In this document: positions 14,601 through 45,532 of the stretch, piece after piece
How positions within the stretch are numbered: the stretch's first letter is position 1
How the letters are laid out: each line of letters opens with the position of its first letter
NCBI GenBank assembly: GCA_009780035.1
Contig: WRAU01000007.1
Span: 1-64,000 of the forward strand
From: Alphaproteobacteria bacterium
GTDB lineage: Bacteria > Pseudomonadota > Alphaproteobacteria > WRAU01 > Hepatincolaceae
Reading direction: 5' to 3'
Length of the DNA stretch: 64,000 bases
The notes under the pieces: generated by a model
Told to the model about the DNA's origin: nothing
The model's input: the letters and a program-made list of their open reading frames with translations, nothing else
Databases searched by the model: none
Position numbers and translations under genes: made by a program

Positions 14601-16123
14601 ATATGAATCAAATGGCATCAATAATTAGTGATGGCGTGAATTATACGGCTTCGTTATTAACAGGTGCTATGGATTCTTTATCTAATAATATTAATTATAC
14701 TGCCTCAATTTTAGCAGGCGGCATGGATAATGTAGTTGAAAGATTAAATAATATTAATATGCTTACAGAAGTTCAAACGGCTAAACTAGATAATTTAGAT
14801 TATAGATTAAGCGAACTTCCAGATACAGTGACAAGTATGTTTATGAACTTAGGTGATATGTTTAGCAATATGTCAAACTATCTTGGCAGCACTGTAGATA
14901 ATATGCAAAATCTAGTTTATGAGATTATGTCGCAAAATTCAGCTGCGCAGTCGGCTATTATGGAAGCAATTGTTGATAATAGAAGCGCTAATGCTATGGT
15001 TATGGACATGGTTAATCAAACCACTGGATTGCAATCTGTAATTGCTGATCTTGCCAGCCAGTCTAATTATGCTAATTCTATGGTAGATAATTTGGCATCG
15101 CAAACATCTATGCTGCAATCTACTATGGATATGCTGGCTAATAATTTTGCAAATCAAACTGATTCACTGCAATCATCTATGGGTGTATTAGCAGATACTT
15201 TCTCTGGAATTTATTCTGGTGTAATGGATACAACGCAAACAATGGCAGCTACATCTAATTCATTGTTCTCAATTTCTAATGAGTTAGCAACACAAACTGA
15301 TGCTTTGGAAAGAAACAGTGTGATGGCTTCTAATTTAAGCAACGATCTTCAGAGTTTAGCTTTCTCTAATGAAAATTTAAGAGATGTAGGCGGTATGCTA
15401 TCTAATGTAATAAACTCTTTTGATACATTAGCTAATGTATTATCAACAGTGCAGGTTTCTGCTGATAATATGGATAGAACTTTTGCTAATTATTCCGATA
15501 TGCTGTTTGGTGAAGTTTCTAGGCTGACTGAAACCCTAAATGCCCATTTAAGTAATTTTATGTCTAAAGACCTTACATTGGGACAAGATATATATAATAT
15601 TATGAATGGTCTTTCTATGGCAACCAATGATATTTCTAGCGCTATAAACACTTTTGAAAATCTAGCAAGCAATTCTATTGTTGCTAACAGTAATGTTCAA
15701 GCACAGATAGAAAGCTCTATGAATTATGCAATTAATGAGATTGCTTCTATTAAGGAAAATTTAGGCAATAATATTTCTGAAAGAATTATTTACGAAATTT
15801 CTCAAGTGTCAAATAATCAGCAAGAAATGATGAATAGATTAGGTATGGTTATGCCGCAGATTAATGACTTAATTAATATCCTAAGCTCAAATGGTGGTGG
15901 TTATGGTCAGAATATGATGGGTATGAATAATCCTAATGCTAATAATGGTGATCTTCTTAATGCTTTAATGACTTTAAGAGAAGAGCATCAAAATGGCAAC
16001 GCTAGATTAGACATCATGGCAAATGCTGTAGATACTTTGATTACTGAAATATTAAATTCTAGGGATGTTGCTGAAACAATACTTGATGTTGTTACTAGAA
16101 TGGCAGGATTAACTCCAAGATAA
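11624..16123 (+). CDS. Giant MotA/TolQ-like proton-channel protein with ~1,270-residue tail
   Basis: A 1,499-residue protein. Four membrane helices lie at about residues 9-28, 40-60, 149-168 and 201-226. The last pair fits the MotA/TolQ/ExbB channel core: FLGGVFILLGLFGTFIGLL, then GMGMAFSASLFGLTAGLFAN. After helix 4 comes a tail with heptad-like spacing, rich in Asn, Ser, Asp and Met, with many LxxxMxxxxN segments, so probably cytoplasmic coiled coil. Four 14-residue repeats lie at residues 583-638. Family MotA proteins are near 300 residues. A possible promoter (TTGCAT 11573, TAAATA 11596, 17-base gap) precedes it. The MotB-like partner follows after 33 bases. Function of the tail is unknown. 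Confidence 0.85.
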   Translation: MSLKVNFFPLHFIVSILGLVVFSIVFSDTIYSYMAENITLNGAIIALFVFCMIWIFGCLSYYARSVKLINNLFNSAIPQSVEGEEGAQPGSQSMYIASSISGTLIDNPVASRVLSNFAKTGKLDINYSDAMIIVQAVDENGDRIMGPAKFLGGVFILLGLFGTFIGLLHTIDGVGTALKSVSDADNVDVFGLVGLLVEPLQGMGMAFSASLFGLTAGLFANYGIFVAHHQLAVFINKLKNFLTATTGISQVDPSEIKAEDILLALEDSFNKLSVVFAEKLDMVTEGLLAMSKVIARGQDRQEKLSKASLINLVKVAELAEKLNILESLDDNVRQGLEENRIELFKYLDSKVVASFNQVLDTLELNNRISIDHVELSEKTSVVIEDLAGMMENLLDLTEAGNDVVSEKSDVINGSLRANGVILNDLLESSDESLSVLESIDGKTTGIDYRPNFDEVVDAVNENNDLTSESNALSDEANNLADTLINKVATEDSLLATIDSVEDATAAIDDTINELETQREILNDTLDSLNDIGDSIDDNLEKIIESNDGILAEVVDANSLNNDILSEATRNNELNEDILATANDNLDTNRDILDVAYNDLDNDRDILDTLRDGLDTNRDTLDMLRDTLDTNRGILDTLYTVDSTLSEQASSLYNLERYSDSMLNNLESIYSSSIELNNRVGEMTDGFSTYLPIMTDIMGVVRDEMNGLSSTVEMLGNSIYDMSQNLSQHGDAIGRLGEIVYLLDSRMESLDNATSSLNNSLQQTLPAMYEAIDISSTNSQYLAQLIGTMDYIAQVSEGIGRSMADFANQVLQENAYIADQVQNVSSVVMDSIDKMSNTVMDSTNQISNSLAETSYSLMDTSNTINGAANTVMDAANLISQAVEQSTLISNDSSMAAQTMLSVVDEFSQLRDLYSSQMTDVSQLLSDTMSSVMAATDYVSNNLINLNDLVATVQGYSNDVMNTQETIRESMQGMMGVSEYMANSQDNFLNALSGNMNQMASIISDGVNYTASLLTGAMDSLSNNINYTASILAGGMDNVVERLNNINMLTEVQTAKLDNLDYRLSELPDTVTSMFMNLGDMFSNMSNYLGSTVDNMQNLVYEIMSQNSAAQSAIMEAIVDNRSANAMVMDMVNQTTGLQSVIADLASQSNYANSMVDNLASQTSMLQSTMDMLANNFANQTDSLQSSMGVLADTFSGIYSGVMDTTQTMAATSNSLFSISNELATQTDALERNSVMASNLSNDLQSLAFSNENLRDVGGMLSNVINSFDTLANVLSTVQVSADNMDRTFANYSDMLFGEVSRLTETLNAHLSNFMSKDLTLGQDIYNIMNGLSMATNDISSAINTFENLASNSIVANSNVQAQIESSMNYAINEIASIKENLGNNISERIIYEISQVSNNQQEMMNRLGMVMPQINDLINILSSNGGGYGQNMMGMNNPNANNGDLLNALMTLREEHQNGNARLDIMANAVDTLITEILNSRDVAETILDVVTRMAGLTPR
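13370..13537 (+). repeat. Four tandem 42-bp (14-residue) repeats inside the stator tail
   Basis: Units start at 13370, 13412, 13454 and 13496, each in frame and encoding a variant of xLDTNRDILDxLRD. The unit length is two heptads, so the repeats extend a coiled coil without changing register. Divergence between units is small, which suggests recent duplication. Confidence 0.85.
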
Positions 16124-16156: not shown

Positions 16157-17254
16157 ATGGCAAAAATGGAACAGGAAGATGTCGGTCAGCAATCATGGCC
16201 GGTATATGCGGATATTCTTTCTTCCACACTTATAGTTTTGGCATTTGCTCTTTTAGTTATGGTGATGGTGGTATCTGTTATGAGAGTAACCTCATCCATA
16301 AGAAATGAAAGCCACGAAACAGCTCCGTCTTCTTATAAGGTGGAATCTGAGGTTTTAGGAGATTACAGAGCAGAGTTTCAAAAATTAGCGATTGTTGCAA
16401 ATCCTAGTATGCGGGAAGAAATGCAGATACAAAGTGATGCGCCTACGGTTGATCAAATGAGCAATAGACCGATTTATGTTCCTAAAGATATTATTGATGT
16501 TGTAGATAAGCCTCAAGAAGTTAAAGCTATAGGAGATTCGGAAAGACAAGTTCTTGGGGATATGCCTAAAGTTGTAGATGTAAATCCGATTGAAGTTTTA
16601 GAAGAATTAATAATCGTGCAAAGAGATGTTATAGAACAGCAAAGAAAGGTTATTGAACAACAAGATGAACAGATTGCACAAACTGTAAGAGAATATCAAA
16701 GTTTATTGGCTCTTGTAACTAATGAAAGAGAAATTGAGGATGTTCGGCAAAAAATTAATCCGCAGCAGGATGTTGCAAGATTTACTCCTTTAGATATGGA
16801 AGGTCAAAGAGTATCTGGAACTACAGAGGCTCCAACTGGACAAGGTTCTTTGTTTTTATCACCGCCGAATAATCCTGTATCAAAAATTTCTGCTGAGGTG
16901 CTGAATGATGCTTTATTCTTTAATTTTAAAGACAATGCTCCTTTCTTAAATCAAGAGAGCAGCCAAGTGGCTACAGACACCATAAGAAATAATATTGATA
17001 AATTCAGTGGATCTAATATAATATTAGAAACAAAGGTTACAGATTTTGCAGTATCGGGAGCTGAAGCTCAAAGAATTGCTGTAGAAAGATTGTTAATTTT
17101 CCGTTCTCTTTTAATTGATGCTGGGGTTTCTCCTTCATTAATTAGATTGAAAACTATAGAGGGTCAGCCGGACGATCCTGCTGCTAGCAATAGTGGTCAA
17201 AGCGGTTCTGCAGAGTTAAATTATGGTTGGGTTGCGATAAAAAGAAATGGTTAG
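16157..17254 (+). CDS. MotB/OmpA-like stator partner
   Basis: A 365-residue inner-membrane protein. After a short cytoplasmic start, WPVYADILSSTLIVLAFALL forms the single helix; YAD matches the MotB position of the ion-carrying aspartate (Asp19 here). A periplasmic coiled-coil region around residues 155-200 (VQRDVIEQQRKVIEQQDEQ) leads to a C-terminal OmpA-like fold: LFFNFKDNAPFL, a VTD in the GHTD place, and VERLLIFRSLLIDAGVSPS. Peptidoglycan-binding residues are only partly recognisable. A strong AAGGA site precedes the start, and the end overlaps the TolC-like gene by eight bases. It should form the stator with the upstream protein. Confidence 0.82.
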   Translation: MAKMEQEDVGQQSWPVYADILSSTLIVLAFALLVMVMVVSVMRVTSSIRNESHETAPSSYKVESEVLGDYRAEFQKLAIVANPSMREEMQIQSDAPTVDQMSNRPIYVPKDIIDVVDKPQEVKAIGDSERQVLGDMPKVVDVNPIEVLEELIIVQRDVIEQQRKVIEQQDEQIAQTVREYQSLLALVTNEREIEDVRQKINPQQDVARFTPLDMEGQRVSGTTEAPTGQGSLFLSPPNNPVSKISAEVLNDALFFNFKDNAPFLNQESSQVATDTIRNNIDKFSGSNIILETKVTDFAVSGAEAQRIAVERLLIFRSLLIDAGVSPSLIRLKTIEGQPDDPAASNSGQSGSAELNYGWVAIKRNG

Positions 17255-18608
17255 AGTTATAAGTTTATTCTTAATTTTATTTGTTAGTATATTTTTTTCT
17301 AAATCAGCTTACAGTTTAACTGTGTATGAAGTGATAGAAAGGGTAGTCAATAACTCTCCAGAATTAAGAGTTATTTTTGAGAAGAAAAATCAAGCTGTAG
17401 CGGGATTTAAAGATCAAAGATCTCAATATCTTCCTCAAATATATACTATTTTCAATAGAGAGTATAATAAAAATGATCCAATAACCTCTACTGCTGATTC
17501 TGCTTGGGAGGCTTATAATAAGCTGCAAGTAATTTTAGAGCAAAGAATTTTTGATGTTGAGCAAATGACAAGAATATTAAGTTCTGCCCAAGCTGTGCAA
17601 TCTCAAGAATTTGAAAATCAAAAACTATTAGAATCTTTAATTCAGTTAGCGGTAATATCTTACTATGATGTTATTCAAAGTGAGTATCTTGTTTCCATTA
17701 ATAAGGAATATTTAAGGCAAGTTAGAGAAATAGAAACTTTAACAACTAATATGAGAAATCAAGGTGATGCTACATTAGGTGATGTTAATTTAGTTCAATC
17801 AAGATTGGCTTCAGCTAACTCTAACTTAATTTTATCTCAAGCAAATTTAGATAAAACTAGATTAAGATTAGCCTATTTATTAAACTTAGTAGATAAAAAT
17901 CAAATTAACTCTTCCGTAGCAGTTTTACCTGAGCTTACTAATAAGGACTTTTATGATTTAGGCGATAAAGTTATCAATATGATTCCTCTTACTGCTGAAG
18001 GTTTAATAAATGAAGTGTTAGCAAATAATATTGATATATTAATAATTCGTTCAAACCTTTGTTTATCTGGTTATGACTTAGAGGTGCAAAAATCAAGATA
18101 TTTACCTGTAGTAAACTTAACTGGTGAGTTAAGAAGTGAAGAAAGCAGAACTGGTTCTGGTTTTACAAGATATGGTAAATTAACTTTTGAAGCAAGATAC
18201 TCTATCTTTGATGGTGGCAGCAGAGAAGCTGGGGTTAAAAAATTCTCAGCAGCTTTAAAAGAATTAGAATATCAGTATGATATTATGGTAAGAGATACCA
18301 GTGATAGATCTTTCTCTACTTTTAACTTGTTGAGATCTTACGAACAACAAAGATTATCAATTTTAAAAGAAATTGAAGCTACAGAAGAAGTTGATAGAAT
18401 TTATAACATTCAGTTCCAATTTGCTAGCCGTAGTTTAATTGATAGATTAGATAACCTTGAAAGACTATCTAATGCTAGAGCTAAATTAGTGCAAACTGAT
18501 TATTCTATCTTATCTTCTCGGTTGCAAGTTTTATTACTAATGGGTAATTTTGTAGAGTTCTTTGGCTTCCAAAACTACTTAGAAACTAATAACTTAAAAT
18601 TATGTTAG
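17247..18608 (+). CDS. TolC-family outer-membrane channel protein
   Basis: A 453-residue exported protein with a signal peptide ending SKSAYS. The body has the two-fold outer-membrane efflux protein pattern: long helices with LTVYEVIERVVNNSPELRV at the start of the mature chain, MRNQGDATLGDVNLVQSRLA in the first repeat, and a second repeat beginning VLANNIDILIIRSNL. TolC proteins form trimeric tunnels across outer membrane and periplasm for type I secretion or efflux. No ABC exporter or membrane-fusion gene is nearby; instead the gene overlaps the MotB-like gene, so the tunnel may work with the stator. Confidence 0.88.
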   Translation: MVRVISLFLILFVSIFFSKSAYSLTVYEVIERVVNNSPELRVIFEKKNQAVAGFKDQRSQYLPQIYTIFNREYNKNDPITSTADSAWEAYNKLQVILEQRIFDVEQMTRILSSAQAVQSQEFENQKLLESLIQLAVISYYDVIQSEYLVSINKEYLRQVREIETLTTNMRNQGDATLGDVNLVQSRLASANSNLILSQANLDKTRLRLAYLLNLVDKNQINSSVAVLPELTNKDFYDLGDKVINMIPLTAEGLINEVLANNIDILIIRSNLCLSGYDLEVQKSRYLPVVNLTGELRSEESRTGSGFTRYGKLTFEARYSIFDGGSREAGVKKFSAALKELEYQYDIMVRDTSDRSFSTFNLLRSYEQQRLSILKEIEATEEVDRIYNIQFQFASRSLIDRLDNLERLSNARAKLVQTDYSILSSRLQVLLLMGNFVEFFGFQNYLETNNLKLC

Positions 18609-19211: not shown

Positions 19212-20687
19212 TTATCCAATAATTTCATTGAGCTTAGCAATAAGCTGTTCTTTTTCGCCGCTGCCATTGGTTTTAAAACGAATTAATGGAATATTATATT
19301 TTTGTAAAATAGAATTTTTTAGAATATCTCTATGATATTGCTTGCTTCCCTTTTTATGATAATCAAAACCATCAACCTCAATAACAATAACTGGCATTTT
19401 ACTAAGTTTATCAAAAATCAGGAAATCTACATGGGTTAAAATATTTTTCGCATAAATTTTCTCATTATCTCCTAGCTTGCTCATATCTCGTAGTAGCATT
19501 TGCAAAGGTACAAAACTAGCAACATCAAATTTGGCGAAATGTTCCTCCTTTAAAACTTCGCCTATTAACGCAAACATTAGATTTTCACTGTCAAAATCAG
19601 AAATTTTCTTTTGATTTCTTAAAAACTCCTGCTTTTTATGATAATAACCCTTATATAAATAATCAAAAACCGAATAAACTTCACTTTTAATAATTTCTAA
19701 ATTATTATATTTAATATAATTCTCTAAATCGCCGATATTAGTATCCACAGCTTCATCATCACTTACAACCACTATAAGTTGATTAATTGCCCGAGAAACT
19801 GCCACATTCAAGCGATTAGCATTATCAGCAAATGCAGAAATTTTATTATCTACCGTGCTTAAAATCACCACTTCTTTTTCACGCCCTTGAAATTTATCTA
19901 CCGTATCGGCTTGAAACTTTGTATCGGCAAAGGCAGTCTGCAGGGCATTTGTTTGTTTCCTATAAGGGCTAACAATTCCCACATCGCAATTCTCAAGCCT
20001 TTGCTGCGAAATAACCTCATGTTTTATAACATCAATCTGCCTTTGGTTAATATGATTTCTATCATGATTTCCGGATACGGTTTTATAAAGTATAAGCGGC
20101 TGTTCTTTATTATTTTCGCTTAAAATAATCAGCTGATTGTTATAAAACTTTTGATTGCAAAATTCTATTATTTTAGGGTGGCAGCGATAATGCTCCCTTA
20201 GTAAGACTTTAGGTGCTTGCGGGAATAACTCACTACAACTCAACAAAATACTATGATTGTTATAACGATATATTTCAGCTACATTAAATTTATTCCATAT
20301 TATATCAGTAGATTTCGCAGTTTTAGGCTCAACCACATTGGGCAACTGCTTTAGGTCGCCAACCACCACAATGTTTTTGGCACAATACATTGCTAGGCTG
20401 CCGGTGGCAATATCTACCTGCGAGGCTTCATCAATAATTACATAATCATACAGTGTATTTTTAGATAAGCTGCTGATAAGCGAATAGGTGGTGGATAAAA
20501 TTACAGGGTAATATTTTAAGAATTTATAAGAATTTTTCCATAAATCTTCACTTGTAAAGCTAGTTTTAGTTAAATTTTTATATTTTTGCGATAAATTATT
20601 ATGGAATAATTTTAAAGATAAACTTGAGGATTCCTTCATTTTAGCATTAAAATTAAAATCCTCAAGCTCGTTTTCTGTTGCTTGCAA
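19212..20687 (-). pseudogene. UPF1/DNA2-like SF1 helicase, C-terminal half with DUF2726-like nuclease (frameshifted)
   Basis: This 491-codon frame holds the second half of a superfamily 1 helicase: Walker B IIDEASQVD, VVGDLKQLPNVV, LREHYRCHPKIIEFCN, and the last helicase motifs VDKFQGREKEVVILS and RLNVAVSRA. A C-terminal domain (about residues 365-491) has HVDFLIFDK, VIVIEVDGFDYH, RDILKNSILQKYNIPLIRFK, like DUF2726 nuclease-fold domains. The TTG at its edge is not a true start: the frame stays open upstream as YYITKINELSKLL, the natural continuation of the N-terminal half at 20696. One base missing in an A-run near 20728 would explain the break. Confidence 0.8.
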
Positions 20688-20695
20688 TAGTTTAC

Positions 20696-21751
20696 TTAGC
20701 TCATTAATTTTTGTGATGTAGTAGCTTTTTGGCAGAGTTTAATCATAATTTCTGGAGCAAGTTTATAAAATTCTTTAGTTTTAACTCCAAAGCGAAAGTA
20801 GTTAATCATTCTTGTAAAAAAATTTGGTTTTTTGTTATTACGAAGATATTTTTCGCATAAAAACCATAATTCCATAGATTTACTAGAGTTTATAGGCTTT
20901 AAGCATACAGATACAAAATTATCACTATATTGGCAGTATTCATTAAAATGCTGATATTCTAAATTAACTCCCGCTATTTCTTGCTTTAAGCTAGATAATT
21001 CATTTTTTTTAGCAAGCATAATTTCTAATTGCTGAGAAAGGCTAATTAAAGATTGCTTGGTTTTAATTTCTTCTAAGGGATTAATCTCCCAAGCCAACAA
21101 ATTAGGCAAAGGCTTTTGTTCTTCTATAAATTTTTGCTTGTTCTCGCTACTGCCAAGGTTAGCAGAAATAAAATCTACATGATATTTTTTTAATTTTTCA
21201 AACACATTCATAGTGGCAGAATTGTTGTTAGAAACTACAGCAACAGTTTTGCCCTGCATTACTAAGTTGGCGATAATATTTAAAATTGTTTGAGTTTTGC
21301 CGGTGCCAGGAGGACCTTCAATAATGCTGAAAGGGTTAGTCAGAGCGTTATCAATCGCTTTTTTCTGCGATAAATTAAAACCAAAGGGATAAATTGTAAA
21401 AGATGGGGGGTATGGCTTATTTTCAGGAAACCTTCCACTTAAAAAAGCAGCAAGAATAGTGTTTTTATTAATAAAATCAATTTTTTCATAATGATTTTGT
21501 AGAATGTTTTGGTCGCCATTTTTAATGCCAATTTCGTATGCGATACTTTTAAGATAGTTAAAGCAATTGCTGGAAGTACTTTCATTTAAAATAGAATGAA
21601 TAATTTCAACATTGCCGGCATTGTATGAAAAAGTTCTACCATCATTAAAGGTAATGCTGACTTTGTTGTCTTTTAAGTGGTAAGACTTAATATCGGCAGT
21701 CCTATCCTTGCCTTTAATGATGATTTTACTTTTTTGTTGGTATTCATTCAT
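20696..21751 (-). pseudogene. UPF1/DNA2-like SF1 helicase, N-terminal half (frameshifted)
   Basis: The first half of the same helicase, 351 codons. It carries PFGFNLSQKKAIDNAL (Q motif region) and Walker A IIEGPPGTGKTQTILNIIANL, then a helical insert, and stops at LMS just past LCQKATTSQ. The Walker B and later motifs are in the other frame downstream. I place the start at the ATG 21751, preceded by GAGG at a six-base gap, rather than the upstream TTG. Restoring one A in the CAAAAAG tract near 20728 would fuse both halves into a protein of about 850 residues. Loss of function, a programmed shift, or a sequencing error all fit. Confidence 0.8.
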
Positions 21752-21822
21752 CTTTTGCCTCAATTACTACTATAAATTAGCATAAGCAAGGCAAAAAGTC
21801 TATTATAAGAGCTAAGCTACAG

Positions 21823-25252: not shown

Positions 25253-27568
25253 TTGAATAAAATAATTTTGAGAATAATTTTAATTGCGTTGTTCTCACTG
25301 CCAGCTGCAGCAGGTCAGGTTGTTAATATTACTCAAAACCCAACTGGTGATGTATACGGCAATGCTAGTGATGTTAATAATCCTTATGACAGGTTAGGAG
25401 ACCCCAACAATAATACGCTTAACCTAAATACAGATAATTTACTTTTTTATAAAATTGTTTTTTATGGAGCTAGCAGTAGTTCTGCTACAGGGAATCTTAG
25501 CGGAAATACGATAAATATTACAGGAACAGGATTTCAAATATATGTCCTAATGGGTGCTTTTGCATCAACCTCTGGAAATATGAGCAATAATACAGTATTT
25601 ATAAGCGAATCTACTAATAGTTTTTATGGTATTATTACTGGTGCATTAAACAATGGAGATGGGCGGGTAAATAATAACAAAGTTGATATTCGTTCGGGGA
25701 TTATTTCTGTTGTAAGCGGTGGTTTAGGAAGTAAGGGTGTTGTAGATTCTAATTCTGTTTATTTAAGCAATGTGGCTGGAAGCAGCGGATTTGCCATATC
25801 TGGCGGAGGCGGAGGCGGTAAAGTATTAAACAATATTGTAGAAATAAAAAATTCATCTTTTATGGGGCTTGAGGGCGATTTATCAATAAGCGGAGGGTAT
25901 GATCTTTTCAAGACATATGATTGTTCTGCAAACTGTGAAATTTCTGGTAATAGTGTATCTTTAGAGAACACAATAGTTAATGAGGGTTATATCTATGGCG
26001 GCGGTAATAGATATGATAGTGATAGTAAGTATTTAATTAAAAACAACACAGTAAATATCAATGGCGGTTCAATTGGCGGTGAGATATATGGCGGATATGT
26101 AGGCAGCGGCGGCGGTGATGTTATTAATAATACAATTAATATTTATAACAATCCAGATTTATCAAGAGTCTACTTGTATGGAGGATATTCTAGCAACGGT
26201 GTAGTTTCTGGAAATACACTAAATTTATACACCAACACGAAAGTTTACTTAGTATCAGGCTTTCAAAATTACAACTTTTACACAGATGGCAAAAACTTAG
26301 AAATACCAATGCTAAAAACTACAGGGTTAACTCTTATAAATATGAATAACACTGTAGTAGGACTATATTTAAAAGATGGCTCGCAAGCCTTAAAAGGTGG
26401 AGATACAATATATTTGGTATCAAACATAACTGGCAACAATATCAGCCAAGCCAGTGGAATAATTCGTAGTGGAGCAACTATGCTTTATGATTGGGATTTG
26501 TTGGTAGATGGCAGAAATTTATATGCAAAAATAAAAGGAGATGTTGATACGGGAAAGCCTGCCCCATGTATAGGAGAAGACTGTGGCAGCGGAGGCGGTA
26601 ATAACGGAGGAGACAACGATGGAGCAGGTCGTTTAAACCCCGAAACTAAGTCTTTAGCTGAGGGATATTTATCTGGTATGTCGTTGCTAATAACTGGAGG
26701 CGATTTAGCAAATGAGGGCAGCAGTATATTAGATTCTACTTTGCAAAACGATGGTGATGGAATGTTTTCTAGCATTAGCGCTAATTCTATAAAGCTAAAC
26801 AGCGGATCTTATGTTGATACTAAAAGCGGCTCTCTCATAGTAGGTTTCGGCAGTAAAGTTGATAATATTTTGTTAGGATATTTTTTAGAAGCTGGCGGCG
26901 GTAAGTATAACACCTACAATGAGTTTACTGATATAGATTCTGTTGTAAAAGGTGAGGGCAGCAATACTTATGCCGGAGGCGGACTGCTAGGCAGGCTGTC
27001 TTTTGATTCTATTTATTTTGACGCTTTAATTCGCGGCGGGTATATATCTACAGATTATAAAGCAGACTACTCCCCTGATGCTAACTACAATATTGGAGAG
27101 CTGTATTACGGTGGGCAGTTTGGAGTTGGACTAATTCAGCGTATGGATTCTTTCTCTCTCAATGAATATATTAAATATTTGGCAGCAATGCGGCAAGGGA
27201 ATACAATAAAGCTAGATTCTGGGGAAGAAATTCAATTTGCCAATGTAATGTCTTCCCGTGCAGTAGCTGGAGTGAGGGCTAAATACACGGCAGTATATGT
27301 TGGCTATGCTTATGAGCAAGAACTAGCAGGTGAAGCGAAATCTACAACATCTAAGCAAACAATTGACGCTCCAACCATTAAAGGTGGAACTAGCGTGATT
27401 GAGGCTGGCTACGACCAAACTTTCTCCCATAAGTCAATACAGTATGGTTATGGGCGTAATACCCGTTATAGCCCTGCCTCTAGCTTAAATATCGGCTTTG
27501 GCGGTAAATATTACATAGGTCAAAGAGAAGGCTTCTCCGTAAATGCTAAACTTGGTTATATGTTTTAG
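25253..27568 (+). CDS. Autotransporter with NN-rich beta passenger
   Basis: A 771-residue type V secretion protein starting with TTG, eight bases after AAAGGA. The signal peptide ends LFSLPAAAG. The passenger (about 25-440) is a run of short repeats of the form NNTVNISGG and GGEIYGGY, expected to make a right-handed beta-helix. A Gly/Asn/Asp linker with a CIGEDCG pair follows, then a beta-barrel (about 500-771) ending in GYMF with the terminal aromatic. The NPETKSLAEGYLSGMSLLITG segment marks the junction. It is a paralogue of the protein at 42749. Role in adhesion is inferred. Confidence 0.88.
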   Translation: MNKIILRIILIALFSLPAAAGQVVNITQNPTGDVYGNASDVNNPYDRLGDPNNNTLNLNTDNLLFYKIVFYGASSSSATGNLSGNTINITGTGFQIYVLMGAFASTSGNMSNNTVFISESTNSFYGIITGALNNGDGRVNNNKVDIRSGIISVVSGGLGSKGVVDSNSVYLSNVAGSSGFAISGGGGGGKVLNNIVEIKNSSFMGLEGDLSISGGYDLFKTYDCSANCEISGNSVSLENTIVNEGYIYGGGNRYDSDSKYLIKNNTVNINGGSIGGEIYGGYVGSGGGDVINNTINIYNNPDLSRVYLYGGYSSNGVVSGNTLNLYTNTKVYLVSGFQNYNFYTDGKNLEIPMLKTTGLTLINMNNTVVGLYLKDGSQALKGGDTIYLVSNITGNNISQASGIIRSGATMLYDWDLLVDGRNLYAKIKGDVDTGKPAPCIGEDCGSGGGNNGGDNDGAGRLNPETKSLAEGYLSGMSLLITGGDLANEGSSILDSTLQNDGDGMFSSISANSIKLNSGSYVDTKSGSLIVGFGSKVDNILLGYFLEAGGGKYNTYNEFTDIDSVVKGEGSNTYAGGGLLGRLSFDSIYFDALIRGGYISTDYKADYSPDANYNIGELYYGGQFGVGLIQRMDSFSLNEYIKYLAAMRQGNTIKLDSGEEIQFANVMSSRAVAGVRAKYTAVYVGYAYEQELAGEAKSTTSKQTIDAPTIKGGTSVIEAGYDQTFSHKSIQYGYGRNTRYSPASSLNIGFGGKYYIGQREGFSVNAKLGYMF

Positions 27569-31041: not shown

Positions 31042-31959
31042 TTATTCAAACTTTTCATAAGTTCTACCCTCAGCACCGCGATAAAACCCATTAGAGAATT
31101 TATCACCTTTAGGAAGCAATGGCTGCATTAGGGCAAAAGCCTCGCTGCCAGATATTTTTTTATCCAGCACATCTTTAAATAACGAAATTACTTTAAGCAT
31201 ATCCATATAATGCGGAGATATTCTAAAAATATTTACACCCATATCCTTAAGTTCTCCTACCTCGCTAATTAAATTTGCATAAGTATAAGACATGGTTTGC
31301 GTGCCGTTAACGGTTAAAAAATTCTCGTCTGTTAATGTAGATATAGTTTTGCCATTATAATCTTTTTCACATACATATTTACAATCATCTTTAGAAGTAT
31401 GATGAATTCTTGCATGATAGCATCTTGCAGCAATTGCTAAGGGCATGCGTCCAAAGGCAAAAATCTCTTTTTCAGTTTTAGGGTTGGCTGCTGCTGAGAT
31501 AACTTTAAGAGATTCTCTATCAATTTCATAAGGAAAGCAGAACCGTTTAGCCCCTTGTGTTTCTAAGGTTTTAACTGTTCCTTCATTATACACATTAACA
31601 GTAGGACCTATAATGTAGGGCTTATCTTTTAATAAACCTAAAAGCCCAACATCATTTACTTCTATTAAAGTATTGCTTTGAGCTTTTTCTATTAATTTTT
31701 TGCAAACATTCATTTCTAAGTCGCTTAGAATTAAAGAAAAAGTAGAAAAATGGACTTTTTTTCCGGCTTTAGTTAGTCTATCTACAACATTTTCAAAGGC
31801 TGCTTCAAAAAATGGATACCTTTTATAGCAAACTACTTCACCCAAATATACTTCATCGATGTTTGATTCTTCAGCAATTTTGAAGTAAAAGTCTTGCCAA
31901 TCGTTTACTTTCCAGTTGAATAGACAGGCTCCCAATGTTAATTTATAATCTACAGCCAT
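31042..31959 (-). CDS. ubiV: O2-independent ubiquinone hydroxylation protein UbiV (U32 family)
   Basis: A 305-residue U32-family protein. With UbiU it forms a complex that hydroxylates ubiquinone precursors without oxygen. KLTLGACLFNW at the start, then YLGEVVCYKRYP, and the cysteine set ARCYHARIHHTSKDDCKYVC provide the four Cys expected to bind a 4Fe-4S cluster. The start codon overlaps the end of ubiU by ten bases, so the two are translated together. Length fits UbiV (about 295). Confidence 0.92.
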   Translation of the reverse strand: MAVDYKLTLGACLFNWKVNDWQDFYFKIAEESNIDEVYLGEVVCYKRYPFFEAAFENVVDRLTKAGKKVHFSTFSLILSDLEMNVCKKLIEKAQSNTLIEVNDVGLLGLLKDKPYIIGPTVNVYNEGTVKTLETQGAKRFCFPYEIDRESLKVISAAANPKTEKEIFAFGRMPLAIAARCYHARIHHTSKDDCKYVCEKDYNGKTISTLTDENFLTVNGTQTMSYTYANLISEVGELKDMGVNIFRISPHYMDMLKVISLFKDVLDKKISGSEAFALMQPLLPKGDKFSNGFYRGAEGRTYEKFE

Positions 31960-32936
31960 TTTCGCACATATGCTCCTGTGGTGTTGGTGTTGCCCTCTGA
32001 TAGTTTTTCAACATCTGGTATATCATAAGGCTTACCCTGATTAACTGCATCAACTGCAGTGCGGAATTGTTTAACAATAGATTCCACATAGGCTTTTCCT
32101 CTTTGACGGCCTTCTATTTTTAAAGCGCTAACGCCAGCTTCTAATAGTTCTGGCAGTTTATCAATAATTGACAGCGAAGTTGGTTCTTCAAATAAATATG
32201 ATGTTTCATCATCAACATTAAATCTACCTTTGCAAATGGTTGGATAACCAGGAGATTCTTCTTTTTTAAAAGAATTAATTACCGAATTATTCAGTTTGCT
32301 TACAAGACTTCGTCCTCTATCTTCATACTCTACAAATTCCGCCGGCGAACAGACGCCGTTCTTGTTGGGAGATTTTCCAGTAATATAAGAAGAAAGCGAG
32401 CATTTGCCTTCTGCCATTACACATAATCCGCCGTAAACAAAAACTTCAATTTCTGCATTGGTTCTTTCTTTAAATTGTTTAATTTGCCGCAAGGTTAAAA
32501 CTCTTGGCAAAACCACTCGGCTAACCTCGTAAGTATTAATGAAATAATTGATTGCCTCTATACTTGAGGCAGTGGCTTGAACAGAAAGATGTCTTTTTAA
32601 ATTAGGGTGATTCTTATGAGCATAATCAAGCAAGCCAATATCTGCTAAAATTACTGCATAAGCACCAGCTTCTTCTGCATCGACAAGAGCTTTATGCCAA
32701 ATATCTAATTTACCGGCAGTAGGGTAAGTATTAATTGCCACTAAAACTTTACTTCCTTTAGATTTTGCATAAGCTATGCCTTCATGCAGTTCTTCAGTAG
32801 AAAAGTTAAGTCCTGGAAAATTTCTGGCATTGGTTTCGTTTCTAAAGCCGCAATAAACTGTATCAGCCCCTGCGTCTACTGCGGTTTTTAAGGCTGATGG
32901 AGTTCCTGCCGGGCACACAATTTCTAGTTTCTTCAT
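31950..32936 (-). CDS. ubiU: O2-independent ubiquinone hydroxylation protein UbiU (U32 family)
   Basis: A 328-residue U32-family protein, partner of UbiV. ELVCPAGTPS-like start (LEIVCPAGTPSALKTAV), DTVYCGFRNETNARNF, and the signature YGGLCVMAEGKCSLSSY are present. Cys172, Cys179, Cys196 and Cys235 match the spacing of the four cluster ligands known for E. coli UbiU. Lying between ubiT and ubiV on one strand, it completes the anaerobic ubiquinone set, meaning respiration with ubiquinone at low oxygen. The original protease naming of U32 does not apply. Confidence 0.94.
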   Translation of the reverse strand: MKKLEIVCPAGTPSALKTAVDAGADTVYCGFRNETNARNFPGLNFSTEELHEGIAYAKSKGSKVLVAINTYPTAGKLDIWHKALVDAEEAGAYAVILADIGLLDYAHKNHPNLKRHLSVQATASSIEAINYFINTYEVSRVVLPRVLTLRQIKQFKERTNAEIEVFVYGGLCVMAEGKCSLSSYITGKSPNKNGVCSPAEFVEYEDRGRSLVSKLNNSVINSFKKEESPGYPTICKGRFNVDDETSYLFEEPTSLSIIDKLPELLEAGVSALKIEGRQRGKAYVESIVKQFRTAVDAVNQGKPYDIPDVEKLSEGNTNTTGAYVRKWL

Positions 32937-32981: not shown

Positions 32982-33668
32982 TTAAGAATTATTATAGTCT
33001 GATTTTTTCCTAATTTCTTCTTTTTTTATTTTATTGATAACTGTTTTAAGATTATCAAGGTCTTCCTCTGCTTCAATTATTCTATTTTTTATAGAAGCAA
33101 TATCTTTATTAGTTTTTGAAAGAATTGCTGAAGTAATTGTATTTAAGCTATTTTGAAGGATACTATATTTTTCTACAGTTTTATTGCCAATTTTTTTAGC
33201 AGCATTTTCAAAAGGAGCTGCCATTGATGATAAATCGGCAATGATATTCATATCCTCACCATCTACAGCATTTCGTAAAGCTACACTTGCCGCTGTTGAA
33301 CCTTCTATTACTAATTCGTTTGAAAAAAACATGGCATCACCATCGGCATTGCCTTCAAACAGCTGCAGTAAATTACTAAGACTTCCCTTAATAGTAGCTG
33401 CTACATTAACATGCTCGCTGCGATGGATGGCTTTTAAAACAGGGGAGGTAAGGGATGGTTTTAAATAAAAAACAAAAGGTAAATCCGTTGCGTCTATTAT
33501 GAAATCAAATTCTTCACCGGAAAGTCTTTCAAAAATACGAGGATGTTTTTCCTGCATTATTTTAAGTGATTTATCTAAAAAAGGCTGTAAAAAAGATAAA
33601 GGAACTTTTTTAAAAAAAATTCCTAGAAGCAAAACCACTGATAAATCGTTTTTTGTATCACTGCTCAT
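32982..33668 (-). CDS. ubiT: SCP2-domain ubiquinone accessory protein UbiT
   Basis: A 228-residue protein whose middle part is an SCP2 sterol-carrier-like lipid-binding fold: VNVAATIKGSLSNLLQLFEG, then GDAMFFSNELVIEGSTAAS. UbiT binds lipid intermediates for UbiU-UbiV. The C-terminal 60 residues form a coiled coil (NRIIEAEEDLDNLKTVINKI), longer than in E. coli UbiT (174 residues). It is the first gene of a ubiT-ubiU-ubiV operon, 46 bases before ubiU. Confidence 0.85.
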   Translation of the reverse strand: MSSDTKNDLSVVLLLGIFFKKVPLSFLQPFLDKSLKIMQEKHPRIFERLSGEEFDFIIDATDLPFVFYLKPSLTSPVLKAIHRSEHVNVAATIKGSLSNLLQLFEGNADGDAMFFSNELVIEGSTAASVALRNAVDGEDMNIIADLSSMAAPFENAAKKIGNKTVEKYSILQNSLNTITSAILSKTNKDIASIKNRIIEAEEDLDNLKTVINKIKKEEIRKKSDYNNS

Positions 33669-33776: not shown

Positions 33777-36515
33777 TTATTGTTGTAATAAATTCATAAC
33801 ATTTCCAACTAATACTTCAAGACTTTCAGTGGTATCTTTGAACTTTTTATCGCCGTTTATGTCTCCTAACCATAAAGCAATTATATACTCATCATTAAAG
33901 ATAATAGCAGATTGGAAATCCATCATAATAAAGAAAGTGTTTCCTCTATTTGTGGTTATGGTGTTAAAGTAAACATTCTTTAATAGCTCGGTATAAGTTC
34001 TTCTTAATGTGATAAGTGTTTTCATATCATATTTAGATTCGTTGATGCCATTGATATTATCAATTATTTGAGTTTCAATAATTGAAGGTTCAGCTTGGAA
34101 TGCTGTATAAGACCTAGTAATATCAAAGAAATTAACTCTTACATCCCCGTTAAGCAAATCTGGCATTGCAATAGGTGCTGTTGGAGTTATTCTTAATCTA
34201 TTAAACATATCCTCAAATTCTTTTGCGGTAAGTGCTGAGAAGAAATTATTTTCTAAATAAGTTAGTTTTTCAGCCAGCATTTTTCTAATACCGCTTGGCA
34301 TAACTGCTAAATCTTTTGATTCTATGGTTTGCAGTTCGCTAACCGTCATTTTAACTTCAGTTGTATTGAAAGTTAAATTTGGATTAACTATCGGCGGCAC
34401 AAACTGCTCAATTCTTTTATTAGAGAATATTAAATTTTGATAGTTGGAATCTAATATCTGAGTTGGCACATCTTTTTTATTATCCAGCAAAGTTAAATAC
34501 ATCCATGGCTTAAGCGAATTATAGACAAAAGTTTCTGGATAAGTATTTTTAAAATACAATTTGCCGTCAACCATAGTTGTAGTAAGCCCAACTAATAATT
34601 GATTATTTTGAATAACAATAGCAGAACCTTCTGGAATGTTATTTCTTCTTAATTGCTCGCCTAGCAAAGAGGAAAGGGCATTTTGCAAAGCATTAGAGAA
34701 AGTGGTTTTCACTGTAATATCATAGCTTTCAGGGAAGTGTTCATAACCAGACAAGAATAAGCTATCTAAATAAATTGAGAAAGAAGTTCTTGGAATTTTT
34801 GCATTACTGCTAGCTTTTTTGTATTCATCTAAAATATTTTCCCTAAGATCTTCTGGAACATAATCATTAGCTATCATCATATCTAAAATATTTTCTACTG
34901 TAATCTCGTAGTTAGGGTAATATTTCTTATTATTATCGTAAAGAAGTTTCAGCATAAATAAAGCATGAGGAACATCCATAGTATTTGGATCAACTTTTTC
35001 AAAATAGTTGATAAAAGACGCTTTCATTCCTATCTGATAATTGGAGAAATAAGTTACATTTAACAGCAGCTCAAAGAAATTTCCTAAAGATACTTTCTCT
35101 TTAAGCCAATTTACTAAGAGGTAATTTTTAATAGGATTAATATATCTGGCAACAAATCCTGTAGTATCAGGCTGATAAAATTTAGTCATTATAATATTAA
35201 TGGAAGAAAATTCACAGTTAGGAGAAGCCATATCTTCCGGACCTTTAAAAATTTTACAGCCATTAATTATATAAAAATCGTTTCTGCTGAAAATTTCATT
35301 GTTAGCACCGGCAACTTCAGTAAGATAATAAGTATCAATTCTATCATTAGGAAGCAATGGTTGATCGCTTGGAGCAAACTCGTTTTGCATCTCAAATCCT
35401 ATATTAATATCAGATTGACCCATAAATAAATTATTTGCCCAATCAAGAAATTTGTTGGGGATTGCCGTTGCCACATCGGAAATCGTGCCGAAAATGCTGG
35501 TGTTTCTTCTAAATATACTTTCTCTAGGAGCATTAATATAATTGCGGTATTCTAAAATTAGAAAATTTATAAAGTCTTGATCTACTTTTACATTTTCAAC
35601 AGGAATTCTTTCTACAGATGCCTGTTCCTTAGCCTTTTGATAAATTAGCTCATTCAAGGCATGAAGTGCAATAAAAGCATGTTCAAAGTTGCTTGAAATA
35701 TTAGCAGCATAAGTAAGAGTTCTTGGCTCTCTTTTGGTTTCAAATATTTTAGCATCGCGGCTATCTACTATTTTAATGGAAAGCGGTTTATTAATGGAAG
35801 CTAAAATTGGAACTAATGGATTGGCTTGATTTAAGAAAGTGCCAATCATAAACATCATAACAATTAAAGCAAAAATCATAAAAGCTAAAACTTTTAATTG
35901 ATTATTTACGATTCCTTTACCATCAACAGTTTTAGATAAAGCCTGAATATAACTTTCAGTTTCTTCTGTATCTACGCCTCTAGCCGACTGCAGTCTAATA
36001 GCTTGCTCTGATCTATGCTTACGATTTTGCTCTACTAATGATCTAATGTTCCCGTTAAGACCGTCGCCGGTTTTCTGTCTATTTTTATAAGCGTCTTTTA
36101 CCTCATTCCTAATTGAAAAAGATGGAAGCCTTACCTGTTTATGCTTATTAAGAGAACCCTCGAGTTCATAATCTTCCCCCGCGTTTCTTCCTGTATATGT
36201 GCGGTTGCTAGTAGGTTTTGGTGAAGAATTATCTTCTCTAGATTCAGGTGCTTTGCTGGGAGAAGCATACCTGCTAGATGCTGATGAGCTTGAGCCCCGA
36301 TTGGAAGAGTTTCTCGTTGAGCCTGATCTGCCTGTGGAATTTCTATTATTTTCTCTATTAAGGATTAAAAAATTAAAGTTCTTATCAGAAAAATTATTAT
36401 TATTAAAATTACTAAACCCCGCTAAAGAATATTTAAGTTTATTTTCACCTGGGAAAATTTTTTGACATAATTCTTTATAAGCAGAGTTTAAAAATATTTT
36501 TTTTAAAAAATTCAC
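33777..36515 (-). CDS. Class A penicillin-binding protein homologue lacking catalytic residues
   Basis: A 912-residue bitopic protein: a cytoplasmic Ser/Arg/Asn-rich region (1-207), one helix at 208-228, and a long periplasmic part. Residues 272-292 align with the transglycosylase start (usual AFIAIEDRRF; here AFIALHALNE), so His285 replaces the catalytic Glu. KEKVSLGNFFELLLNVTYF and the YFEK segment fit the later GT51 motifs. In the transpeptidase part YNSLKP (665-670) replaces GSxxKP, putting Asn666 at the nucleophile; SKD (733-735) stands for SxN; NRGNTF replaces KTGT. NGDVRVNFFDITRSYTAF still fits. Fold assignment is inferred from motif order; a scaffold role is my suggestion. Confidence 0.65.
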   Translation of the reverse strand: MNFLKKIFLNSAYKELCQKIFPGENKLKYSLAGFSNFNNNNFSDKNFNFLILNRENNRNSTGRSGSTRNSSNRGSSSSASSRYASPSKAPESREDNSSPKPTSNRTYTGRNAGEDYELEGSLNKHKQVRLPSFSIRNEVKDAYKNRQKTGDGLNGNIRSLVEQNRKHRSEQAIRLQSARGVDTEETESYIQALSKTVDGKGIVNNQLKVLAFMIFALIVMMFMIGTFLNQANPLVPILASINKPLSIKIVDSRDAKIFETKREPRTLTYAANISSNFEHAFIALHALNELIYQKAKEQASVERIPVENVKVDQDFINFLILEYRNYINAPRESIFRRNTSIFGTISDVATAIPNKFLDWANNLFMGQSDINIGFEMQNEFAPSDQPLLPNDRIDTYYLTEVAGANNEIFSRNDFYIINGCKIFKGPEDMASPNCEFSSINIIMTKFYQPDTTGFVARYINPIKNYLLVNWLKEKVSLGNFFELLLNVTYFSNYQIGMKASFINYFEKVDPNTMDVPHALFMLKLLYDNNKKYYPNYEITVENILDMMIANDYVPEDLRENILDEYKKASSNAKIPRTSFSIYLDSLFLSGYEHFPESYDITVKTTFSNALQNALSSLLGEQLRRNNIPEGSAIVIQNNQLLVGLTTTMVDGKLYFKNTYPETFVYNSLKPWMYLTLLDNKKDVPTQILDSNYQNLIFSNKRIEQFVPPIVNPNLTFNTTEVKMTVSELQTIESKDLAVMPSGIRKMLAEKLTYLENNFFSALTAKEFEDMFNRLRITPTAPIAMPDLLNGDVRVNFFDITRSYTAFQAEPSIIETQIIDNINGINESKYDMKTLITLRRTYTELLKNVYFNTITTNRGNTFFIMMDFQSAIIFNDEYIIALWLGDINGDKKFKDTTESLEVLVGNVMNLLQQ

Positions 36516-36540: not shown

Positions 36541-36617
36541 TGGCGTACCCGAGAAGACTTGAACTCCTAACCTTCTGATTCGTAGTCAGATGCTCTATCC
36601 AGTTGAGCTACGGGTAC
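36541..36617 (-). tRNA. tRNA-Arg (ACG)
   Basis: The reverse strand gives acceptor GTACCCG/CGGGTAC, D-arm AGCTCAACTGGATAGAGC, anticodon stem TCTGA/TCAGA with loop CTACGAA (anticodon ACG), T-arm with GTTCAAGTC, discriminator G and encoded CCA (36543-36541). Confidence 0.97.
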
Positions 36618-36741: not shown

Positions 36742-37122
36742 ATGATAAGATTTTTCATAAGTATCTTTATTTGTTTATTTGTATTTAGCACTGCGGAGGC
36801 TTCGCTGTTTCGCGATAATATTTTTATCGGCAAAAATAAAGAGAAATATTCTTATTTTTTCAGCATTACAGAATTTACTTCAATAAAAGATATAGAACAA
36901 AAACTTCGCAGCAAAAAATTTTCGCTGAAAAAAAATACAAAGCTACTGGTAATATTAGAAATGCCTAATAATTTAAGCTCATCAAAGCAAGAAGCCCTGT
37001 GGGTGCAGCTTGGCGATTTAAAAACCAGCTTTAATAATACCCCGTATCATTTCATCACAAAATTCAATGGCATAGTAGATAAAAATCTTTCCATGTATGT
37101 AGTCCATTTATACTATAAATAA
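36742..37122 (+). CDS. Small secreted protein of unknown function
   Basis: I do not recognise this 126-residue protein. The first 20 residues, FFISIFICLFVFSTAEA, are a clear Sec signal peptide with an AEA cleavage site. The mature part is basic, alternates strands and helices (IEQKLRSKKFSLKKNTKLLVIL), and ends VVHLYYK; no cysteine is present. It lies upstream of the rpmH promoter on the same strand. A periplasmic location is inferred. Confidence 0.6.
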   Translation: MIRFFISIFICLFVFSTAEASLFRDNIFIGKNKEKYSYFFSITEFTSIKDIEQKLRSKKFSLKKNTKLLVILEMPNNLSSSKQEALWVQLGDLKTSFNNTPYHFITKFNGIVDKNLSMYVVHLYYK

Positions 37123-42748: not shown

Positions 42749-45532
42749 ATGAAGAAATTTTGTTTATTTATATGCTTAATATTTTTTGTGCCACAAATTA
42801 ATGCAGCAGGGCAAACGGTTACAATTACAGTTGATCCGGCAAGTGATGTATCTGGGAATTCAGAAACCCCAGATGGCTTAGGTGTTGCTACCTTAGACCC
42901 TGCAAACAATACGGTTAATGTTATTGGAAACAACATTAATACTACTTATTCCATAGCCGGCGGAAGAATTAGCTCTGCCGTTTCATTTAGCGAGGTTAGC
43001 GGTAATACGGTAAATATTCTCGGTGATGACTCAACCTTTGCTGAGGTGTATGGCGGAATTATATCCTACAGCGGTAATAACGGAAATGTAATTAATAATA
43101 CCATAAACATTTCAGGTAATAATTTAACATTTAATAAAATAATTCGTGGCGGCACTTCCTCTGGGTTAGGAAGTATTAATAACAACACTATAAATATTGG
43201 TGGGAGTGTATCTACATTTAATGACAATATTTTTGGAGGATATACACTAGGGTCTCAAATAAATGCCGATGGCAATACTGTAAATATAAGTGAATCTTCT
43301 AATAATTCATATGCTGGCAGCGTTATTACAGGAGGTCGTGGGGCATCGGCTAATAACAATAAGGTTATTATAAAGTCTGGCACTTTTATACAGTCTGCTA
43401 CTACAATAAGGGGCGGCAATGGTGGGGGCAGCACTGCTGTTAATGTTGGGAGTGCCAATAATAATTTAGTTGATTTAAGCAACATTACTTTTATGGCATC
43501 AGGAACTGTTATCGCCGGCGGACATGCCCATACCATAGCCAACGACAACAATGTAAAAATAAATAAATTAAGTTTTACGGGTAGCACAACAATAAGGGGA
43601 GGCTGGGCAGAATCTCCTGGTCAACAAGCACCTGATTCTTTTGAGGCATCTGGTAATAATGTATATATAGAAGACAGTGATATTTCTGGAAGTATATCTG
43701 GTGGAGAAATTACTGGCAATTCTAGAGATAACACCTTAGTGAAAGTTCAAAATAATACATTAAATATTAAAGGCGGCAGTTATAGCGGCAATTTATACGG
43801 CGGTAATGCTAGCCGTGGGACAACAAGTGCAACCAATCTAGCAGGAATTGTCCAGTCTAATGGTGTAAATATTTCAGGTAGCAATATTGTAGGCTCTGCA
43901 ATATATGGAGGAAGAGGCGGGGTTGTTAATAACAACTATGTAGTAATTAAAGATGGCAATCTTGAAAATACGAAAGTTTACGGAGGATATTCCGATGGCA
44001 GCAGCACGGCAACTGATGTATCCTTTGAGGCATCGGGCAATAGTGTATCTATAAATGGCGGGGTGATTGGTGGTGAAATTTACGGCGGCTTTAGCTATTT
44101 GCAAGCAGGTTCTACAGCACCAGTAAACAATAATACGGTTAGCATTTCTGGTAATGTAGATTTAAGCAATGCTTCTTTGTTTGGCGGATTTGCTACAGAT
44201 GGCAATTCTACTTCTAGCGGCACCGGCAATACACTAAATTTAGCCAGCAGCATAACCCTTTTAAAAGTTGCTAATTTTGATAATTACAATTTTTATATAA
44301 CCGGCAGCAATAATACCAGCCCTATAATGCACACCACATTTGAGCAAACCGATATGAGCGGGACAACTATTGGGCTATATTTACAAGAAGGAATAAATGC
44401 CAATTTTAAAATAGGTGATACCATATGGCTAGCCGAAAATATAAAAGGAGATGAAGATAGTTTAAATCAATCTTCTCGTTATGTTCGCCAAGGGGTTGCT
44501 AAAATTTATGATTGGGATATACATATAACTGGAGATAATTTATATGCAGTTATTAATAAAGATGTATATGTTAGCACAGATGGAGGTGCAAATCCTGAGG
44601 CAAAATCTTTACTTGAGGGGAATTTATCTTCGCTTGGAATGCTAATTTCTGGAGCCGATTTAATAGCAGATAGTGGTGTCCGTTCTTTAGAGGCAGCTTT
44701 ATTTAATAAATCTACTGGTATTTTTACAAGTGGTAGCTTTAATTCACAAAAACTTAATAGTGGTTCTTATGCTAAGGTTAATAGCACTTCTTTTATATTA
44801 GGGTTAGGACACACAACTAAAAACAACAACATATGGGGTTTATTTTTAGAATATAGTAATGCCAATCATAATACTTTTAATAAAATTGAAGACTATGAAC
44901 TACAGGGTGGATCTATTGTTAAAGGCAATGGCACAAATATTTATACTGGGCTGGGCTATCTTGGCAGAATGAGTTTCAACTCTATGTATTTTGATAGTTC
45001 GCTGCGTGGCGGATATGTGGCAACTACTCATAATGCCGATTATACAGTAGGTGCTGAATATAATATAGGAACATTCTATTATGGAGGGCATTTGCGGTAT
45101 GGCTACATGCACAATATAAAAAATATAGAAATGACCGAGTATGTGCAGTATTTAGCAACATTGCAGCAAGGTAAAACCACAACTTTATCTAGCCGCGAAA
45201 AAATTAAATTTGCTAGTATGCTTTCTTCCATAGTATCAATAGGAGGTCGTGCTAAATATAATGGAATGTATTTAGGATATGCCTACGAGCAAGAACTCGC
45301 TGGAGAATCTAAAGCTAGCATAGAGGGATTAGTGGTTAATCCAGCAACTATAAAAGGCGGCACAAATGTGGTAGAGACTGGCTATGAGCAAAATTTCGTG
45401 AAGTTATATTCTCGCTCAGCGCCAGGCAAGGGCTTTGGTATAGGTTCTACCAGCATAGGCTTAGGCGGAAAATATTATATTGGTGTTAGAAATGGTTATT
45501 CTATTAATGCTAAATTTGGTTATATGTTTTAG
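42749..45532 (+). CDS. Autotransporter with NN-rich beta passenger (second paralogue)
   Basis: A 927-residue type V secretion protein. Signal peptide ends VPQINAAG. The passenger (about 20-600) holds dozens of repeats around NNTVNIS, NNTINI and GGEIYGGF, a right-handed beta-helix pattern. NPEAKSLLEGNLSSLG marks the transition to the C-terminal barrel (about 655-927), which ends in FGYMF. Beginning and barrel match the protein at 25253. No good ribosome-binding site lies before the ATG, and an AT-only palindrome-rich stretch (42674-42735) precedes it. It sits between midA and a glycosyltransferase at an apparent inversion point. Confidence 0.88.
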   Translation: MKKFCLFICLIFFVPQINAAGQTVTITVDPASDVSGNSETPDGLGVATLDPANNTVNVIGNNINTTYSIAGGRISSAVSFSEVSGNTVNILGDDSTFAEVYGGIISYSGNNGNVINNTINISGNNLTFNKIIRGGTSSGLGSINNNTINIGGSVSTFNDNIFGGYTLGSQINADGNTVNISESSNNSYAGSVITGGRGASANNNKVIIKSGTFIQSATTIRGGNGGGSTAVNVGSANNNLVDLSNITFMASGTVIAGGHAHTIANDNNVKINKLSFTGSTTIRGGWAESPGQQAPDSFEASGNNVYIEDSDISGSISGGEITGNSRDNTLVKVQNNTLNIKGGSYSGNLYGGNASRGTTSATNLAGIVQSNGVNISGSNIVGSAIYGGRGGVVNNNYVVIKDGNLENTKVYGGYSDGSSTATDVSFEASGNSVSINGGVIGGEIYGGFSYLQAGSTAPVNNNTVSISGNVDLSNASLFGGFATDGNSTSSGTGNTLNLASSITLLKVANFDNYNFYITGSNNTSPIMHTTFEQTDMSGTTIGLYLQEGINANFKIGDTIWLAENIKGDEDSLNQSSRYVRQGVAKIYDWDIHITGDNLYAVINKDVYVSTDGGANPEAKSLLEGNLSSLGMLISGADLIADSGVRSLEAALFNKSTGIFTSGSFNSQKLNSGSYAKVNSTSFILGLGHTTKNNNIWGLFLEYSNANHNTFNKIEDYELQGGSIVKGNGTNIYTGLGYLGRMSFNSMYFDSSLRGGYVATTHNADYTVGAEYNIGTFYYGGHLRYGYMHNIKNIEMTEYVQYLATLQQGKTTTLSSREKIKFASMLSSIVSIGGRAKYNGMYLGYAYEQELAGESKASIEGLVVNPATIKGGTNVVETGYEQNFVKLYSRSAPGKGFGIGSTSIGLGGKYYIGVRNGYSINAKFGYMF

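Follow-up and report, generated by a model that had tools for sequence, protein, structure and literature searches.

A lineage-conserved homologue of class A PBPs that has lost the catalytic residues of both domains, encoded beside ubiquinone genes in an alphaproteobacterial order

The window analysed here, i.e. the whole stretch of 64,000 nucleotides, encodes a 912-residue homologue of class A PBPs (aPBPs), which is well supported as a lineage-conserved pseudoenzyme and not a decaying gene. The protein would be a membrane-anchored aPBP paralogue in which the GT51-like domain is remodelled, the C-terminal domain keeps the transpeptidase fold and neither chemistry is left, and it most likely serves—a reading held with moderate confidence—as a non-catalytic partner of wall synthases. 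The coordinates had been given correctly by the initial annotation, which left the strand (minus) unstated. The 912-codon frame runs uninterrupted from a GTG start, 7 nt before which there is the Shine-Dalgarno-like sequence AGAAGG. The gene and its parts are as follows:

33777–36515, minus strand: pseudoenzyme gene, class A PBP-like, coding for 912 aa from a GTG (open reading frame; TIGR02074; orthologues in four of four genomes of the order)
35895–36515, minus strand: cytoplasmic low-complexity tail, residues 1–207, rich in Ser, Asn, Arg and Lys (four-orthologue alignment, composition)
35829–35894, minus strand: predicted transmembrane helix, about residues 208–229 (hydrophobic; HMM-aligned to the transmembrane segment of active aPBPs; helix in the model)
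35661–35663, minus strand: His285, which replaces the catalytic Glu of GT51 motif 1 (HMM, orthologues; within the model helix 275–301)
35214–35258, minus strand: Cys420 and Cys434, next to where motif 2 has degenerated (both invariant in four orthologues)
34836–35216, minus strand: GT51-like region with motifs 3–5, residues 434–560 (PF00912 in orthologues)
35124–35126, minus strand: Asn464, which replaces the second catalytic Glu, that of GT51 motif 3 (alignment with active aPBPs)
33780–34715, minus strand: transpeptidase-like domain, residues 601–912 (hhalign; model compared with solved PBP transpeptidase domains)
34509–34520, minus strand: N666-S-L-K669 replacing SxxK, Ser lost and Lys kept (N and K unchanged across the four orthologues)
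34311–34319, minus strand: SKD, residues 733–735, probable SxN position, unconserved (alignment; model pLDDT below 50)
33900–33912, minus strand: site of the missing KTGT strand/loop of 13 columns, after residue 870 (alignment)

The relationship to aPBPs spans both the GT51 and the transpeptidase regions. The NCBIfam model TIGR02074 (PBP_1a_fam) matches residues 462–691 with an E-value of 6.7e-11 and a score of 41.7 bits, which, in keeping with a strongly diverged relative, is far under the curated cut-off of 508.75. The profile of the pseudoenzyme and its orthologues, compared by hhalign with active alphaproteobacterial class A PBPs, aligns over 379 columns with a probability of 98.9 and an E-value of 2.9e-17. 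Since the pseudoenzyme alone found no significant match in Pfam, or by phmmer among PDB sequences, its homology rests on NCBIfam, the profile methods and the fold. PF00912 exceeds its cut-off in the orthologues from the genomes G002 and G003, covering there just the half with motifs 3–5, and reaches a sub-cut-off 13.5 bits in the window protein. Structure prediction, named in the initial annotation as a check, was carried out with AlphaFold2 on an alignment of eight rows; the one model obtained (mean pLDDT 63.5) has a transpeptidase fold, in a part with pLDDT mostly of 70–90, which superimposes on solved PBP transpeptidase domains over 234 residues with a Z-score of 19.7 and an rmsd of 2.9. 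Compared with the full-length PBP1a from A. baumannii (3udx), the model gave a Z-score of 19.0 over 372 residues with an rmsd of 10.1, the latter value probably reflecting either domains arranged in a different way or a GT part that is modelled with uncertainty.

Concerning the catalytic residues, both aPBP active sites had been described as erased, and this is borne out at His285, Asn464 and Asn666 as well as by the deletion of the KTGT stretch. The HMM of active aPBPs covers residues 213–283, ending two positions before the catalytic Glu of the GT domain; its ungapped extension places His285 on that Glu, and the tripeptide ALH is invariant in all four orthologues. It should be noted that a first multiple alignment had placed a different residue there, and a local alignment a Glu; according to the HMM alignment this was an off-register artefact, caused by the more than 100 residues inserted after the slot, and the assignment of His285 therefore relies on the orthologues and the HMM. 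Where the second Glu would stand, and where Asn had been recognised (Asn464), the four orthologues read Asn, Asn, Asn and Thr. For GT motif 2 (GGSTITQQ), the alignment with active aPBPs and orthologues revealed no recognisable equivalent in the pseudoenzyme; His285 and Cys434 lie about 150 residues apart, vs. about 37 residues from motif 1 to motif 2 in the active enzyme. The invariant pair Cys420/Cys434 suggests a possible disulfide that may replace the substrate loop.

In the transpeptidase domain, the nucleophile Ser is indeed replaced by Asn666, invariant in all four orthologues, with Lys669 and Pro670 being retained, and the absence of KTGT corresponds to 13 deleted alignment columns. With regard to the SxN motif, read originally as SKD, its degradation and its lack of conservation hold under either placement, the placement itself being uncertain: SKD lies at the end of the SxN helix in a part of the model with pLDDT below 50, MAFFT favours residue 750, and the SKD column contains S, N, K or Q in the first position and D, D, D or N in the third one across the four orthologues. 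Judging from these residues, the pseudoenzyme is expected to be incapable of lipid II polymerisation and of acyl-enzyme formation.

Full-length orthologues of the pseudoenzyme are present in all four genomes of the order examined, covering one family and four genera, and all four carry the same replacements at two catalytic slots, His285 and Asn666. The window protein is 34, 28 and 25% identical to the other three. Among 385 genomes sampled evenly across the class, no further orthologue was found; the scores in this sample fall from more than 1000 bits to at most 69, and the top-scoring proteins inspected were ordinary active aPBPs. In a wider contig collection, the single-protein query gave no match, while the alignment query gave two MAG records—both containing an orthologue and both from lake samples, as suggested by the isolate names—one orthologue MAG record bearing the depositor label Rickettsia typhi, which is considered unreliable. 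The search of viral contigs for relatives of the pseudoenzyme retrieved none.

The gene is a fast-evolving one, its orthologues sharing 25–34% identity vs. 71–76% for UbiU, 55–58% for YidC and 52% for the intact PBP1A, yet its frame stays open; the chance of 707 unconstrained codons remaining open at this base composition is about 5e-26. The view that the gene is not decaying and is retained by selection as a pseudoenzyme, already expressed in the initial annotation, is upheld by the full-length orthologues in four genera, their shared replacements and the fixed gene order, together with the homology, the fold and the motif loss. Around the former active sites there are 3 invariant columns per 11, a value equalled by 19% of the periplasmic windows (not significant); these surroundings being no more conserved than the periplasmic rest, there is no sign of the dead clefts themselves being the selected feature.

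The cytoplasmic tail of about 207 residues, rich in Ser and Arg, is present as had been described, but the remark on its atypical character carries little weight, because the tail is unconserved: in residues 1–205 just one of 65 gap-free aligned columns is invariant among the four orthologues, and the orthologue tails vary from 139 to 206 residues in length and from +13 to −21 in net charge, the one from G003 being acidic (−21). The intact PBP1A in the window's genome likewise possesses a tail of more than 150 residues. The Ser/Asn/Arg-rich part is best read as a disordered tail rather than a domain.

A search for an active class A PBP, proposed along with the original description, identified in each of the four genomes one protein, and no more, that combines PF00912 with PF00905 (frames of 884–958 aa). 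Every one of these genomes also encodes PBP2- and PBP3-type proteins, i.e. at least two class B-type PBPs, and two SEDS proteins; the wall machinery is thus seemingly complete in each genome, and the pseudoenzyme is therefore an extra component and not a replacement. One additional PF00905 match, in a short frame, was seen in each of G002 and G003. A search for TLC transporters, which bears on host dependence, was silent, as were its controls.

As far as the ancestry is concerned, the pseudoenzyme clade is located in the free tree on a very long stem, the nearest sequences being the short aPBPs L023 and L024. Descent as a direct sister of the genomes' own PBP1A was rejected (p-AU 0.006), whereas grouping it with all PBP1A proteins of the long type was not (p-AU 0.31). 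The spacing between GT motif 5 and SxxK favours the short aPBP type as the parent. The alphaproteobacterial aPBPs of about 600–640 aa (e.g. the loci L023–L026), which are the best-scoring active relatives of the pseudoenzyme family profile, share with it a similar motif 5–SxxK spacing and the lack of an OB-like domain or insert; unlike the pseudoenzyme, they keep both Glu residues, SxxK, SxN and KTGT, and their gene context differs (gpsA, tsaD), no synteny with the pseudoenzyme locus being observed for L023 and L024. The PBP1A from the same genome (958 aa), on the other hand, resembles the pseudoenzyme in domain order and in the long cytoplasmic tail, but has its catalytic motifs intact and contains a PCB_OB domain.

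If neither chemistry is left, the selected function would have to be binding, positioning or regulation. A role as a partner or scaffold seems the likeliest, considering the retention beside one intact aPBP and the published non-catalytic roles of PBPs: the protein would bind, position or regulate the one active PBP1A and/or the SEDS complexes (RodA-PBP2 or FtsW-PBP3). The catalytically inactive PBP2B from B. subtilis still supports division via a structural role (PMC5656894), and the PBP3 from C. difficile, which is found in a complex with the aPBP PBP1, works non-catalytically (PMC12539705). Both are PBPs serving wall complexes without their own chemistry, as proposed for the pseudoenzyme; they are, however, class B proteins, either inactivated in the laboratory or with a dispensable activity, whereas the pseudoenzyme is of class A and lacks both sites naturally. 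Against the partner role it has to be said that the faster divergence (25–34% vs. 52% identity for the intact PBP1A) is compatible with weak constraint as well, that the conservation of the former active sites does not exceed the periplasmic background, and that the gene adjoins ubiquinone genes and not wall genes. The neighbouring genes are:

36541–36617, minus strand: tRNA-Arg(ACG), directly upstream (same strand in four of four genomes)
32982–33668, minus strand: ubiT with an SCP2 domain, next downstream (NF047962 over cut-off; same strand in four of four)
31950–32936, minus strand: ubiU (NF047963, 492 bits)
31042–31959, minus strand: ubiV (NF047965, 333 bits)

The order tRNA-Arg(ACG), pseudoenzyme, ubiT and ubiU is fixed in all four genomes and is continued by ubiV in three of them (it is absent there in G003); the tRNA ends 25 nt before the pseudoenzyme start. 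Since the genome G001 is a single contig of 1.34 Mb, the arrangement is not a binning artefact. A small frame that looks secreted or lipoprotein-like runs divergently from the locus, and beyond it rnpA-yidD-yidC are found. This frame, at 36742–37122 on the plus strand, codes for 126 residues with a signal-like start and belongs to no family in Pfam or NCBIfam; G001 and G002 have counterparts in a similar position that hardly resemble it in sequence (18–21%), and G003 has a comparable frame.

The neighbourhood lends some substance to another reading, possible although rather unlikely, in which the protein would be a ligand sensor, its empty GT groove or transpeptidase cleft binding lipid II, undecaprenyl lipids or stem peptides, and the tail or the UbiT/U/V pathway relaying the information, e.g. 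on wall or polyprenyl status under low oxygen. UbiTUV represent the oxygen-independent ubiquinone pathway and UbiT contains a lipid-binding SCP2 domain (PMC6747719). In addition to the conserved order with ubiT, ubiU and mostly ubiV, the gaps between the pseudoenzyme and ubiT in the four genomes (108, −14, 19 and 1 bp, i.e. 1–108 bp or an overlap) suggest one transcript, the cytoplasmic tail is present in all four orthologues, and Lys669 with Pro670 have survived from SxxK. On the other hand, the tail is unconserved in sequence, a shared function does not follow from gene order alone, and motif 2 is unrecognisable in the pseudoenzyme. In active enzymes, motif 2 helps to hold lipid II. A more specific and quite doubtful idea is that the pseudoenzyme, co-transcribed with ubiTUV, couples peptidoglycan synthesis to oxygen-independent ubiquinone synthesis, regulating the single active aPBP or the SEDS complexes according to the respiratory or polyprenyl-lipid state.

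It is very unlikely that activity persists via shifted or new catalytic residues, such as the acid four positions after His285 or His285 itself. The former is an acid in all four orthologues (Glu, Glu, Glu and Asp) and the latter is invariant; the acid at +4 is, however, located one turn further along the continuous predicted helix 275–301, the second Glu has become Asn or Thr, motif 2 is unrecognisable, Ser is replaced by Asn and the KTGT stretch is deleted, so that both the GT and the transpeptidase sites would need to be rebuilt. A decaying gene, a recent pseudogene or an assembly artefact is scarcely credible, since, although the gene evolves faster than its neighbours, there is not a single stop across four genera at 25–34% identity, the Shine-Dalgarno-like site and the start are present, the location is identical in the one-contig genome G001, and the four intact orthologues refute decay as a general account.

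A search of the open-access literature turned up no published case of a class A PBP that is dead by nature, and the novelty is therefore a lead and not proof. The aPBPs are known as enzymes; one that occurs naturally, has lost both activities and was retained over deep divergence beside an active one would demonstrate a selected function of the aPBP body by itself, which bears on the open question of aPBP roles besides catalysis. The pseudoenzyme would thus offer a natural separation-of-function protein for testing such non-catalytic roles. It should also be pointed out that automated aPBP counts based on homology only can get the number of wall enzymes wrong where an alphaproteobacterial genome is small.

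Several other features of the window deserve mention. Two long, mutually similar frames at 25253–27568 and 42749–45532, both on the plus strand, with Asn/Gly-rich repeats and autotransporter-like C-terminal ends, flank the pseudoenzyme region on both sides, the former being without a Pfam match. The frame at 11624–16120 (plus strand), also lacking a Pfam match, encodes a protein of 1499 residues that has hydrophobic helices at its N-terminus and, in addition, a repetitive region of great length; next comes a frame at 16157–17251, OmpA/MotB-like by eye and without a Pfam match, and then by a TolC-like frame at 17247–18608. Finally, an SF1-type helicase with DUF2726 is split over two frames on the minus strand, 19212–20687 and 20696–21763; the AAA_11 domain being divided between them (profile positions 2–75 in the first and 165–254 in the second), the helicase gene looks disrupted.
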